Notes under the pieces: generated by a model | Databases searched by the model: none | What the model was told of the DNA's origin: nothing | Seen by the model: only the letters and a program-made list of their open reading frames with translations | Part shown: positions 51,385 to 63,585 of the stretch, piece after piece | Layout of the letters: the number at the start of each line of letters is the position of its first letter | Position numbering within the stretch: the stretch's first letter is position 1 | Made by a program: the position numbers and the translations under genes | Assembly: GCA_019359045.1 (NCBI GenBank) | Contig: JAHHIA010000006.1 | Location: 1-64,000 of the forward strand | Length of the DNA stretch: 64,000 nucleotides | Origin: Scytolyngbya sp. HA4215-MV1 | GTDB lineage: Bacteria > Cyanobacteriota > Cyanobacteriia > Leptolyngbyales > Leptolyngbyaceae | Direction of reading: 5' to 3'

Positions 51385-51473
51385 GCCCAACGGTCGCACT
51401 CACCGGACGCAGATAACCCTTGCAACTCAATCGACCATATTAGAATGTTCCGGGTGCAGCGCGATTGCTAGGT
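51385..51473 (-). other. attC site 1 (end of the integron array)
   Basis: An 89-bp imperfect palindrome is bounded by GCCCAAC at 51385-51391 (matches RYYYAAC) and GCTAGGT at 51467-51473 (one change from GTTRRRY). The inner arms ACTCACCGG / CCGGGTG pair. The stop codon of the oxidoreductase gene lies inside the right-hand box. The central loop contains AGATAACCC, a variant of the motif shared by other sites here. Confidence 0.75.
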
Positions 51474-52509: not shown

Positions 52510-52593
52510 ACCTAATGCTCTCAATCACCAGACTTAGATAACCTCTACTAGAAACGCCTATTTCAAAACCCCGGTGCCTTGCGGTTGTTAGCT
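52510..52593 (-). other. attC site 2
   Basis: An 84-bp site runs from ACCTAAT (52510-52516) to GTTAGCT (52587-52593), with inner arms ATCACC / GGTGCC and a loop containing AGATAACCTC. It lies 24 bp beyond the stop of the alpha/beta hydrolase gene. Confidence 0.72.
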
Positions 52594-54066: not shown

Positions 54067-54152
54067 ACCTAACGGTTGCGGTCAGCGGTTGTAGTAACTT
54101 TCAACTCAGCACCAGCAGTTTCCTTCAATCCGCTGTACCGCAATTGTCAGAC
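54067..54152 (-). other. attC site 3
   Basis: An 86-bp site runs from ACCTAAC (54067-54073) to GTCAGAC (54146-54152, one change from GTTRRRY). The arms GGTTGCGGTCAGCGG and CCGCTGTACCGCAATT pair with few mismatches. It lies 15 bp past the stop of the 117-residue gene. Confidence 0.75.
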
Positions 54153-54674: not shown

Positions 54675-54759
54675 GTCTAACGACCAAGTTGAGCGGTGAT
54701 CAATATTATGGAAACGAAGCAGAAATGACTTGGTTCGCCGCCCCAACGACTTGTTAGCT
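54675..54759 (-). other. attC site 4
   Basis: The 85-bp site runs from GTCTAAC (54675-54681) to GTTAGCT (54753-54759), with AACGACCAAGTTGAGCGG on the left arm and CCGCCCCAACGACTTG on the right arm. The Doc stop codon lies inside the right box. This is the most canonical site of the array. Confidence 0.85.
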
Positions 54760-55140
54760 AGTGATTGTGTTCCGTTGCAACCAATCTACAAATGCCTCGC
54801 GTCCTAGCTCACCCGATATAATCGCCAACACTACATGCTCTTGCTCATCTACAGAAGCATTAATTTCCATTCCATTCAGAACAAGAAAGGTTTCTGTCGC
54901 AGCATGACCTGTACGTTTGTTTCCATCCACAAATGGATGATTCATGATGATCGAAAACCCTAATGCTGCTGCTTTCTCCAGCAAACTTGGGTACAGATCT
55001 TCTCCGCCAAACGTCATTTGAGGTTGGGCGATCGCTGATTCCAACAGACCCATATCGCGGATACCCAACGCCCCACCGGATTGTTCAAGGATTTTGCGAT
55101 GTAGCTCTAATACCTCAATTAGTGCCAAGTAGCGAATCAT
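54754..55140 (-). CDS. doc: Doc-type toxin (Fic/Doc fold)
   Basis: The 128-residue protein has the Fic/Doc motif HPFVDGNKR at 68-76, with ESAIAQPQMTFGG upstream as in the death-on-curing family. Doc toxins modify a translation factor (phosphorylation of EF-Tu in the studied case). The start overlaps the antitoxin stop in an ATGA, so they are translationally coupled. The cassette is typical of chromosomal integrons, where toxin-antitoxin pairs stabilise the array. Confidence 0.9.
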   Translation of the reverse strand: MIRYLALIEVLELHRKILEQSGGALGIRDMGLLESAIAQPQMTFGGEDLYPSLLEKAAALGFSIIMNHPFVDGNKRTGHAATETFLVLNGMEINASVDEQEHVVLAIISGELGREAFVDWLQRNTITS

Positions 55141-55334
55141 GCCAAACGCCGATATAATTCAGCGTTTTTTGCTAACACATAATCAGATGCATTAACAAAA
55201 TCGCCTTTTTGTAGATTTAGCCAATCCTCTAGGCTTGCCTTCAAAAGCACTTCAGTCGCAACGCCATGCACTCTTGCTAAATTCTGTAGCTTTTGGAATT
55301 GGCTGTCTGAAAGATCAATTGTGATAGAAGCCAC
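55137..55334 (-). CDS. Antitoxin partner of Doc
   Basis: The 65-residue protein MASITIDLSDSQFQKLQNLARVHG... has a short ribbon-helix-helix-like N-terminus and an acidic C-terminal helix (LAKNAELYRRLA) expected to bind and neutralise the toxin. It is the first gene of the pair and overlaps doc by 4 bp. It probably autoregulates the operon; the promoter should lie in 55335-55425, upstream. Confidence 0.8.
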   Translation of the reverse strand: MASITIDLSDSQFQKLQNLARVHGVATEVLLKASLEDWLNLQKGDFVNASDYVLAKNAELYRRLA

Positions 55335-55425: not shown

Positions 55426-55512
55426 AGCTAACGTTCCCCTTCAGCGGCGGCTATTAACTTTTGCAGCACCACCCAGATCTTCATTCCGTCCGCTGCAAGG
55501 GGGTTGTTAGAC
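55426..55512 (-). other. attC site 5
   Basis: An 87-bp site runs from AGCTAAC (55426-55432) to GTTAGAC (55506-55512), with arms AACGTTCCCCTTCAGCGG / CCGCTGCAAGGGGGTTGTT. A partial second copy (CCGATAACCTCGCTGTACCG) lies just to the left at 55385-55404 and looks like a remnant of another attC. Confidence 0.78.
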
Positions 55513-55552: not shown

Positions 55553-55975
55553 CTAGCTACTTTGCTTGGGGCTAATTTCAAATTCAGAACGCGCACGAAA
55601 GAAACAGACCTCAAACTCGAAGAAGAAATTAGCCTGTCCTAAAATCAAAGGCACATCGGTTGCTCGTGTCCACGCAAATGCTAGATTCACCCTCGGAAAT
55701 GAACTGACTTGAGCATCAACAACGACTGCACGAGCTTCAAATCGAGCCAAGTTTCCTGCCAACACAACTGAGAGTGTCTCATTTTCCCAAATCAAACCCA
55801 GTTGTATCCCCAACTCATAGGGCAAAACATTAACGCTTGCGCCTGTATCCAGTAAACCCTCAGTATTTAAGGCTTGATCATCAAGGCTGAGCGTGAGAGG
55901 CAGGTATGGCATTCGATCAACCATGCCAAGGCTGCTGTCAATGATTTTGTAGGGAAATTTTTGAGTGTCAACCAT
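55553..55975 (-). CDS. Retropepsin-like aspartic protease (cassette gene)
   Basis: The 140-residue protein has the catalytic triad DTGAS at 43-47 and, near the C-terminus, a hydrophobic-hydrophobic-Gly turn (PLILGQANFF), the two signatures of a single-lobe retropepsin that would act as a dimer. It overlaps the 72-residue upstream gene by 8 bp. Such pairs of a small protein and a DTGA protease are frequent in cyanobacteria, but their role is not established. Possible roles are toxin-antitoxin-like or stress proteolysis. Confidence 0.75.
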   Translation of the reverse strand: MVDTQKFPYKIIDSSLGMVDRMPYLPLTLSLDDQALNTEGLLDTGASVNVLPYELGIQLGLIWENETLSVVLAGNLARFEARAVVVDAQVSSFPRVNLAFAWTRATDVPLILGQANFFFEFEVCFFRARSEFEISPKQSS

Positions 55976-57214: not shown

Positions 57215-57300
57215 GTCTAACGGTGAAGTTGTGCGGTAGCAGATAACCTCGAACACCCACCGATAACCTCTGTACCGTCCGCACCAACGCAGTGTTATGC
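57215..57300 (-). other. attC site 6
   Basis: An 86-bp site runs from GTCTAAC (57215-57221) to GTTATGC (57294-57300) with arms AACGGTGAAGTTGTGCGG / CCGCACCAACGCAGTGTT. The loop holds two copies of GATAACCTC. It lies 25 bp past the HNH gene stop. Confidence 0.83.
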
Positions 57301-57325: not shown

Positions 57326-57775
57326 TTAAGACTCAATAGCATCATTGGATGGTGGGTGCCAACCACCTTGAATCCACAAACGACGGGCTTTGACAATCGC
57401 CCCCTCATTATGATTTTGGTCATTCAAATCTAAGCGATCGCACGTTGCACGCCCAATTGAAGTTTTACCTCGAATTACTAGACCGCCTTTCTCCCAAACA
57501 AAATGCTCATTCCACTGATGCAGTCGTGGGTTAAACAACTGAGTAGAAACTTGAGATTCTGGGTCAGTTCCTTCTGTGAAGTTGTAACGGTAGCTATTAC
57601 ATCGCTGACAAGCCAAAGCTAAATTTTCAAATGTATCTGCCCCTCCACGCGATTGCGGTTGGATGTGATCAATTTCAAACCGTGCTGCACTGGCTTCTTC
57701 CGAGGAATGGCAGTATTCACACAGATACTTAGCCCGCTCTCGAACCTGCTGCCGAATCTCTTTTGCAATCGCCAT
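57326..57775 (-). CDS. HNH endonuclease (cassette gene)
   Basis: The 149-residue protein has the zinc-binding pairs CEYC (19-22) and CQRC (56-59) around the catalytic DH at 36-37 and Asn51, the usual HNH layout. A C-terminal region of about 80 residues (HEGAIVKARRLW) follows. It starts 2 bp after the 80-residue gene, so the two are coupled. Similar pairs occur in cyanobacteria, and a toxin-antitoxin or defence role is possible but unproven. DNA cleavage is predicted. Confidence 0.85.
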   Translation of the reverse strand: MAIAKEIRQQVRERAKYLCEYCHSSEEASAARFEIDHIQPQSRGGADTFENLALACQRCNSYRYNFTEGTDPESQVSTQLFNPRLHQWNEHFVWEKGGLVIRGKTSIGRATCDRLDLNDQNHNEGAIVKARRLWIQGGWHPPSNDAIES

Positions 57776-58605: not shown

Positions 58606-58691
58606 GCATAACGACCAAGGTGAGCCGCCGCAGATGACCTCTGAAACTCACCGATAACCTCTCGGCGGTCGGCTCCAACGACTTGTTAGCT
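58606..58691 (-). other. attC site 7
   Basis: An 86-bp site runs from GCATAAC (58606-58612) to GTTAGCT (58685-58691), with arms AACGACCAAGGTGAGCCGCC / GGCGGTCGGCTCCAACGACTTG. The loop has GATGACCTC and CCGATAACCTC. It lies 40 bp past the vapC stop; a third CCGATAACC at 58700 is a further remnant. Confidence 0.85.
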
Positions 58692-58731: not shown

Positions 58732-59130
58732 CTAAGGCTGAAAACGAAGGTTTTGAAGAGGGCGCACCTGGGCAATGGCTTCAAAGTCACGATCATTGTG
58801 AATCAGAATCAAATTGTTTTCCAGTGCTGCTTGAGCAATGCAGCAATCGATTGGACTGCGAACAGTAAGTCCTTGGCGGCGTAGGTCAAAGTAGATACGG
58901 GCTGCTGCTTGCCAAGACTGATTTGTAAGCTCAGCGTAATCTTGTGTTTCGAGGTAAGTGGAAAGGAGATCCCATTCTTGCTCATTCAAGCTGCCTTGGA
59001 GCAGTTCAAGCTGAGTAAATCGAGTGAGTAAAACTTCTCGATTGGCAATCAGGGTTTCAAGTTGCTGGCGAGTTTGACCACTGCGATCGCGAAAGACGCT
59101 GATCCAAACAGACGTATCAATCAGCAGCAT
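58732..59130 (-). CDS. vapC: PIN-domain toxin VapC
   Basis: The 132-residue RNase-type toxin has the PIN acidic residues in LLIDTSVW (Asp5), the Glu of FTQLELLQG, the Asp of SPIDCCIA and HNDRDF near the end. It presumably cleaves tRNA or other RNA. I chose ATG 59130 (MLLIDTSVW); the frame extends upstream to 59226 inside vapB. The two genes overlap by 14 bp, so they are translated together. Confidence 0.9.
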   Translation of the reverse strand: MLLIDTSVWISVFRDRSGQTRQQLETLIANREVLLTRFTQLELLQGSLNEQEWDLLSTYLETQDYAELTNQSWQAAARIYFDLRRQGLTVRSPIDCCIAQAALENNLILIHNDRDFEAIAQVRPLQNLRFQP

Positions 59131-59329
59131 GACGAGTCTCGCGCAAAGCCTTATAATCAAAATCCTCGGTAAATTGGATTTGCCCCGCGAGATCCAGAAG
59201 GTTTTTCTTGCGGCGCGATCGCACAAATTCTGTCAAAGCAAGATTTACCAACTCTTCTTGAGTCGTAAGGTTGGTAAGTTGAAAAGCCTCATTGAGGAGA
59301 GATTCATCCAGGTTCAGGGTAATTTGCAT
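59117..59329 (-). CDS. vapB: VapB-type antitoxin
   Basis: The 70-residue protein MQITLNLDESLLNEAFQLT... has a strand then two helices (ribbon-helix-helix-like) and a basic/acidic tail ending in the vapC overlap. It is expected to bind VapC and the operon promoter. I chose Met at 59329; a Met nine codons upstream (59356) is possible. Confidence 0.85.
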   Translation of the reverse strand: MQITLNLDESLLNEAFQLTNLTTQEELVNLALTEFVRSRRKKNLLDLAGQIQFTEDFDYKALRETRHAAD

Positions 59330-59424
59330 AGGATAAGTAAAGGCTGAAGTAGGCACAATTTCTCACAGTTCAACTCTACAGACCGATCAGCTTTCACTGG
59401 TGACGTAGCTAATCCTTGTGAGCC

Positions 59425-60593: not shown

Positions 60594-60678
60594 AGCTAAC
60601 GGCACAGTTGAGCGGCAGCAGACAGATTAGATTAACACCAATATCTTCTCGGCTGTCCGCTCCAACGCAGTGTTAGCC
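60594..60678 (-). other. attC site 8
   Basis: An 85-bp site runs from AGCTAAC (60594-60600) to GTTAGCC (60672-60678), with arms AACGGCACAGTTGAGCGG / CCGCTCCAACGCAGTGTT. It lies 25 bp beyond the stop of the 518-residue gene, the first cassette after the presumed attI. Confidence 0.82.
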
Positions 60679-62260: not shown

Positions 62261-62466
62261 TCTCTATTGAATTTCTAGGCTTTTGAACGGTATTTACAGC
62301 TCAGTTGAGAAGTAGGTAAATCGTACTACTTTTCTACCTATAGATGCAGCTTAAGCATAGCTCCCACTTCTCGACTGATAAACTTCAAAGTCTACTTAGT
62401 TAAAAAACTTTGAGGATAGAACCCGAATAGACAGCTTGGATGAACTGCCCTATTGAGAAACCAGCA

Positions 62467-62473
62467 GGCTAAC
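62467..62473 (-). other. Candidate attI crossover site
   Basis: GGCTAAC here reads GTTAGCC on the minus strand, matching GTTRRRY, at the position expected between the first cassette and intI. A second candidate, ATCTAAC, lies at 62497-62503. Neither can be confirmed without other genomes. Confidence 0.35.
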
Positions 62474-62512
62474 TACTTTATAGACAGATCCGATCTATCT
62501 AACACGCTCCTA

Positions 62513-62590
62513 CGGGGTATATAGGCAGAATAACGTCCGTCTATATGCCCTTGCGGGGTATATAGGCAGAATAACGTCTGTCTATATACC
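62513..62590. repeat. Tandem palindromic repeat next to intI
   Basis: Two 37-38-bp copies, period 41, differ at two positions in CGGGGTATATAGGCAGAATAACGTC-GTCTATATRCC. Each is an inverted repeat (GGTATATAGRCAG / CTGTCTATATACC). Further TATAGACAG words occur at 62480 and 62644. They may be IntI binding sites of attI or a small transposon-like repeat. Confidence 0.65.
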
Positions 62591-62668
62591 TAAAACAACA
62601 ATTAAGGCAGACGAAGTGCCGTTTATATACCCAAATCGGACTTTAGACAGAATATATCCTCCCATTGA

Positions 62669-62851
62669 GAAATTAGTGCTTCAACACAGAATCAAGCCCT
62701 CAGCGCCTTACTTTTTCTCTACCGCTATGTCCTTCAGCAGCCCTTAGAATCATCGATTGACGCAGTTCGGGCAAAGCAATCCCAGCATCTGCCGACTGTG
62801 CTGACTCCGACCGAAGTGCGTGAGATCATTCAGCAGCTAGCGAGTGTTTAG
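62669..62851 (+). pseudogene. intI: Integron integrase (IntI) remnant
   Basis: The 60-codon fragment encodes EISASTQNQALSALLFLYRYVL, then IDAVRAKQSQHLPTVLTPTEVREIIQQL, the end of the N-terminal domain and start of the catalytic domain of an IntI-type tyrosine recombinase (about residues 55-115 of a protein of some 320). A TGA lies just 5' (62666) and TAG ends it at 62849-62851. The catalytic Arg, His and Tyr are all missing. It is transcribed away from the cassettes, as intI should be, and abuts the group II intron fragment. Confidence 0.85.
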
Positions 62852-63440
62852 CTTTGCATCTAACGTGTCCCTCAGTTGGGTTCCATTACTTCGACCTTTG
62901 GGTGATTCACCTGACCCACGTCTGCCCCCTTTCAGGGCGGGCAATTGCCCTATCCAGCAGGTTATGATTTCCCTTGTCCTTTCGGAGCACTGGCATTCGC
63001 TTTTTGGGTCATCCTCTTCCCACTGAGGATTTAAGTCTTCCTTGCGGTTGACTGACTGTAGTCGTTGCTTCAGACCTCATTGGGGTTGTCACGTTTCACA
63101 CGCTTGAGATACATCTGGAGAGGGTGTCTCCTTTACTGCGGGGACAGGTGTCCTCAGACCTAATTCCACCGGCTAGGTCTCCTTGTCCCAATATCACCGT
63201 TTCAGCCCTATTTCAGTGACCGGAATTCACGCAGCCTCTTCAGAGATTCACTCTCGTTCACCCATCCAGACTTCCCCTTGCCCGGAACCCCTTGTATGGC
63301 TAAGAGCCTCCTTAGACATTACCTCCTTGCAAAAGACCTCTCCGTTACCAGAAACGCCCTTGGAGGTTGGGGATAGGTTTTTGGATACTAACCTAGAGAA
63401 GTCGGCTTCTCACTCAAGAACGTGCAACTTCGTGTCGCAC
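62851..63440 (-). mobile_element. Group II intron 5' fragment
   Basis: On the minus strand, a region of about 590 nt starts with GTGCGACACG at 63440, matching the 5' consensus GUGYG of group II introns. It continues with stem-forming words that I associate with domain I of cyanobacterial introns (GAGAAG-CCGA-CTTCTC; AGACCTA...TAGGTCT; CCGCAAGGAAGAC). It ends at ATG CAA AGC, possibly the start of the intron-encoded protein, fused to the intI remnant. No domain V or reverse transcriptase is present. The assignment rests on pattern memory. Confidence 0.55.
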
Positions 63441-63585
63441 GACGGAATTTTTCCGCCTATTTTCAGATTCACTCCTGGGATGAGCATGGGCGCGATGAGA
63501 TGCCTGGTACATCAACTGGTCTCCTATGCAACCCTAACCCAAGAAGTCGTTAGACCCAAGTGCGAGAAGGCATTCAGCTCTCTGT

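Follow-up and report, generated by a model that had tools for sequence, protein, structure and literature searches.

A decayed integron platform in Scytolyngbya sp. HA4215-MV1 and a near-identical intact integrase elsewhere in the genome

The integrase relic and its surroundings

The window analysed here, a stretch of 64,000 nucleotides from contig C10 (JAHHIA010000006.1) of Scytolyngbya sp. HA4215-MV1, harbors a piece of an integron integrase gene (intI), which is bordered by an attI copy and a cassette array on one side and by part of a group II intron on the other side (Table 1). The array is ∼11 kb in length; it adjoins the relic on the left and lies on the opposite strand. It contains six to eight attC sites, whose scores are among the best of the genome.

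Table 1. Features of the C10 locus (R1 and R2 are the two attC models; positions are those of the window)
Feature	Position	Strand	Remarks
Distal attC, array end	51385..51473	-	52.8 bits (R2), 26.7 bits (R1)
Weak attC, probably decayed	52510..52593	-	29.0 bits (R2); not found by R1
attC, cassette 6	54067..54152	-	63.6 bits (R2); outer box CTGAC for CTAAC, from sequence
attC, cassette 5 (antitoxin-like + Fic/Doc)	54675..54759	-	41.0 bits (R2)
Small antitoxin-like ORF + Fic/Doc toxin	54754..55334	-	Pfam PF02661; antitoxin weakly ParD-like
attC, cassette 4	55426..55512	-	81.6 bits (R2)
attC, cassette 3 (HNH protein and others)	57215..57300	-	65.4 bits (R2)
attC, cassette 2 (345-aa ORF + VapBC)	58606..58691	-	73.5 bits (R2)
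VapB antitoxin + PIN (VapC) toxin genes	58732..59356	-	Pfam PF09957, PF01850
attC, cassette 1	60594..60678	-	72.2 bits (R2); folds
First cassette ORF, 518 aa	60704..62260	-	no confident family
attI copy + intI-upstream region	62464..62676	-	core GTTAGCC, second motif GTTAGAT, 41-bp tandem repeat; 95% identical to C25:2020-2233
Left deletion junction	62676..62677	.	290 bp of C25 (2234-2523) absent, including intI start and first ∼70 codons
intI relic	62677..62850	+	codons ∼71–128 of C25-encoded IntI; 173/174 bases = C25:2524-2697; TIGR02249, 60.7 bits
Group II intron 5' part	62855..63440	-	ends at start codon of its reverse transcriptase; 76–87% identity to relatives

The frame at 62669–62851 (+) translates to EISASTQNQALSALLFLYRYVLQQPLESSIDAVRAKQSQHLPTVLTPTEVREIIQQLASV, followed by a stop codon, and is one 60-codon IntI piece. 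Beyond the relic it takes in a few unrelated codons, and its stop codon arose from the fusion; no ORF of at least 50 residues starting with ATG, GTG or TTG covers it. The relic aligns at about residues 69–128 of the 325-residue IntI. Its best model is that of the integron integrases, TIGR02249 (E value of 1.5e-16), whereas XerD and XerC are far behind, with scores of 21.9 and 17.1 bits, respectively. The preliminary description had allowed for a better match to non-integron recombinases; such an origin is ruled out by these scores. In the intact copy of the gene, the catalytic residues are located in the segments GSGMRLSE (Arg), CHTFRHSF (His/Arg) and GHKDVKTTMIYTH (His/Tyr), all downstream of the part that corresponds to the relic. 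No catalytic residue is present in the relic, which is itself without function, and no intact intI is left at the locus. The TIGR02249 match and the position of the piece (residues ∼70–128, ahead of the catalytic ones) confirm what had been described at first, about 60 IntI codons lacking any catalytic residue.

At the right junction, intI codon ∼128 is followed by four unassigned bases (62851–62854) and then by the intron portion, which begins with GTGCGACACGAAGTTGCA on the minus strand. The assignment to group II introns rests on homologous regions in relatives, which are followed by a reverse transcriptase (RT) frame: in loci L135 and L137, this frame is located directly behind the region homologous to 62855–63440, and the window copy ends at the RT start codon. 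Both the RT and domain V are absent from this portion, it is thus one truncated relic. Rfam group II intron families gave no match to 62855–63440, even at relaxed threshold. Judged from the sequence, C10 has lost the catalytic ∼60% of intI as well as the remainder of the intron. Beside the 5' end of the intron, one stretch of ∼106 bp (63450–63556) has an 80% copy at C15:743-848, at the left end of that contig and near another attC-like site.

The region next to the relic can be regarded as an attI site: it closely copies the attI region of C25, and its core lies at the border to the cassettes. On the cassette side, the similarity between C10 and C25 runs to AAAGTAGTTAGCC (core GTTAGCC), and beyond it the first cassettes differ. 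In attI x attC recombination, the crossover falls at the attI core. Because the similarity ends there, cassettes have been exchanged after the split at one attI copy at least, if not at both. A promoter scan of this region stayed at chance level.

Two models were used for the attC sites. R1 was made from seven sites, six from the C10 array and one from C25, which show compensatory changes in 10 of the 19 pairs. R1 matched seven sites in the window, all on the minus strand between 51385 and 60678; the remaining ∼50 kb of the window gave no match, even at E ≤ 5. R2 is independent; it was made from 79 sites, solely from other genomes, and recovered the seven local sites of R1 together with one weak site. 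The R2 set displays real covariation, with 90.5% of the cells paired and 172 double changes vs 50.5 in shuffles, although this alignment, having been fitted to the structure, is biased towards it. In total, six strong and two weaker foldable sites form an array that points away from intI. The impression of intact attC sites, gained earlier from the letters alone, is borne out by the scores of the independent model (29.0–81.6 bits) and by folding. The scores rise towards attI (Spearman 0.71, p 0.047). Two cassettes are of toxin-antitoxin (TA) type, one with VapBC and the other with an antitoxin-like protein and Fic/Doc; they may add to the stability of the array, as the preliminary description had supposed. 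The cassette genes at 57326–57775 and 55553–55975 match PADLOC candidate anti-phage families; one encodes an HNH protein resembling PtuB and the other a protein that matches PDC-M52B (E value of 1e-54).

An intact integrase on contig C25

The genome is 6.6 Mb in size and is split over 33 contigs. It contains one intact intI, which is located at C25:2312-3289 and is 325 codons in length; its match to the integron-integrase model is full-length and scores 488 bits, compared to a cut-off of 265. The encoded protein aligns over residues 13–324 with the solved Vibrio IntI 2a3v, including the catalytic segments, and possesses the catalytic residues. The preliminary description had proposed a whole-genome search for a second intI and had named another integrase of the genome as one possible server of the sites; the C25 copy, with its 99.4% identity to the relic over 174 bp, supports that alternative. 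No third copy of intI or attI was found in the genome. Next to the C25 integron, C25:1-120 appears by eye to be the start of an IS1-like transposase at the contig end, ∼1 kb past the first attC, and the live integron is thus left with a truncated array.

The nearest of the compared intI genes from outside the genome shares only ∼72% DNA identity. Given the near-identity of the relic and C25 intI and the lack of a third copy, the two are close paralogues, and duplication within the genome would be the simplest reading for the pair. The C10 and C25 copies differ at 12 positions in total. The integrase piece and the attI piece seemed to have diverged unequally (1/174 vs 10/213, p 0.027), but p rises to 0.126 without the junction-adjacent columns, and this comparison was not used. 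A recent loss of the integrase, as had been suggested, is supported by the single change in 174 bp relative to the live paralogue, though such a short relic does not allow good dating of the loss. However, what was lost appears to be one duplicate platform, not the sole one.

We consider it very improbable that the relic is the mis-assembled edge of an intact intI, an artefact which the division of the genome into 33 contigs might suggest. The 12 differences between the copies, the internal deletion and the junction with a homologous group II intron all argue against it; the number of differences, together with a genuine intron 5' region with homologues right of the relic, makes a mis-join with the C25 contig unlikely. 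Moreover, live and broken intI copies are also found together in genomes G012, G016 and G025, each a single contig, which rules out contig breaks as the cause of broken intI.

The direction of copying may also be read the other way round: C10 would be the older, original platform and C25 intI a mobile or newer copy, to which the live function was relocated. This is a rather unlikely reading. It draws on locus L027, in which intI is followed, at some distance, by murJ; murJ is also found right of the C10 array, behind a phosphoketolase gene. However, the L027 arrangement occurs in one of 80 loci and in none of the fetched family loci, and the intervening genes differ. It also bears on the direction of copying and leaves the main reading, a decayed duplicate platform at C10, as it is. 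An attempt to find the ancestral location by synteny gave L027 as the only suggestive locus, with nothing among the fetched family loci. L027, from Leptolyngbyaceae cyanobacterium T60_A2020_046, carries an intact intI with transketolase, glgB and murJ, which is a weak hint of a common ancestral position.

Access to the C10 array in trans

Taken together, C10 is probably the copy of a duplicated integron platform that has decayed, and the C25 integrase most likely continues to serve it in trans. Comparison of the two contigs shows the attI–intI unit to be present twice, intact at C25 and decayed at C10. At C10, one deletion took the start of intI, and a second event, in the order that we infer, joined intI codon ∼128 to the RT start codon of the antisense group II intron. 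The C10 array retains its attI copy and foldable attC sites, and C25 IntI would most likely still excise and insert C10 cassettes in trans, as at the ∼35–40 dispersed attC sites of the genome.

Depending on the filter and cut-off, 35–42 attC-model matches were found in the genome, in clusters on C10, C7, C27, C23 and C5 and as singles elsewhere. About 30 attC-like sites have no intI nearby; they are located on C7, C27, C23, C5 and C4, with singles on C14, C18, C32, C31, C15, C20, C8 and C21. Cassettes are thus scattered through a large part of the genome, in clusters or singly, away from intI. Clusters of attC sites that lack a usable integrase nearby (CALINs) are open to mobilisation in trans if a functional IntI is present (PMC12444791). 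Owing to the near-identical intact intI and the dozens of scattered attC sites, the C10 array is more likely reachable than frozen. Service in trans is further favoured by the integrase being of the same type, the conserved attI and the good attC sites, which tend to be stronger near attI. The array is thus likely to be accessible in trans to C25 IntI.

A truly frozen array, in which the C10 cassettes have been immobile since the loss of intI, strikes us as improbable, though it has several observations on its side. C25 IntI might rarely be expressed or might be biased towards its own attI, with drift and the TA cassettes preserving the array. Apart from attC sequence, C10 has no cassette in common with any other attC locus fetched from the genome, and two TA-type cassettes are indeed present in the array; in Xanthomonas, inactivation of intI accompanies stabler arrays (PMC12444791), and nine of the 42 family genomes carry attC sites with no intI match at E ≤ 1e-10. 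Against it, the genome still contains an integrase of the same type that could act on the sites, and the attI core is retained. Nor are the C10 attC sites visibly worse than those elsewhere: their median score is 64.5 compared to 48 bits (p 0.050), a difference in favour of C10 that is suggestive only.

The label "frozen (or CALIN-like)", which the preliminary description had given to the locus, is therefore not supported: a near-identical integrase type is available in trans, the local attI is preserved with its core and the intI relic is retained. With at least two attC sites and no functional intI nearby, C10 fits the CALIN definition operationally, but only in that sense, as attI and the relic are kept.

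Several known systems come close to the C10 locus. In the sedentary chromosomal integrons of Xanthomonas, intI is inactivated by deletions or stops, the arrays and attC sites persist and extra attC clusters occur elsewhere in the genome (PMC12444791). Different from C10, one single ancestral platform at ilvD dies in place there, whereas here a dead duplicate coexists with a near-identical live intI. Like CALINs, C10 is an attC cluster lacking a usable local integrase, and the "loss of a recognisable intI" is one proposed origin of CALINs (PMC8618304); unlike them, it is a decayed complete integron with attI and intI relic, not just a cluster of attC sites. Fragments of group II introns have also been reported in CALINs, beside cassette arrays that hold TA cassettes as well (PMC7923331); there the 3' part of the intron is retained, whereas C10 retains the 5' part, fused into intI itself. 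For cyanobacteria, the literature search found only one attC model, inside a taxonomy study (PMC8352920), and no dedicated study of Leptolyngbyaceae-type integrons. Both a broken intI next to a surviving array and CALINs with pieces of group II introns have thus been described before; the distinctive points of the present case are the near-identical live twin and the recurrence of live plus dead copies in the family.

The persistence of intact attC sites next to a dead intI can be given one concrete and testable answer, namely a near-identical integrase that survives elsewhere in the genome. With nearly the same attI and with attC sites that are related, the live C25 and the dead C10 platforms offer a natural comparison for integrase action in trans on distant platforms.

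Live and broken intI in the family

Across the 42 family genomes, attC sites were found in all and intI-like sequence in 33. The attC model is specific, with no match in 85 of the 117 genomes drawn across the phylum. By our own reading of the tables, full-length intI is present in ∼26 family genomes, broken copies away from contig ends in ∼20 and both in ∼15. The normal divergent attC position beside a broken intI was seen in 10 of the 22 cases examined, in addition to C10.

Some of the relics are near-identical to the live copy of their own genome, with 99.4% and 97.0% identity in G016 and 99.5–99.6% in G025. In G016, one duplicated block reaches past intI, with clean deletions of ∼711, 826 and 126 bp. 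Based on sequence comparison, the G016 and G025 pairs are regarded as analogous recent cases of duplication and decay. Other family relics are not closest to the copy of their own genome and are thus older or came from outside.

These observations suggest that copying and loss of intI are routine in Leptolyngbyaceae-type cyanobacteria. We tentatively propose, as a possibility short of an even chance, that the integrons of the family form a distributed system, in which one or two live integrases would serve many attC clusters; platforms would be copied time and again to new locations and their intI then quickly deleted, leaving attI-bearing satellites that could be used in trans. The pattern of live plus dead copies throughout the family is a more interesting lead than the single locus.

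G016 also contains one attC-containing unit of ∼308 bp (L176, L177, L179 and L180, for example L177:5153-5460), which is repeated many times head to tail beside intact and broken intI. No long conserved ORF is obvious in the unit, which may represent an amplified cassette whose gene is either very small or absent.
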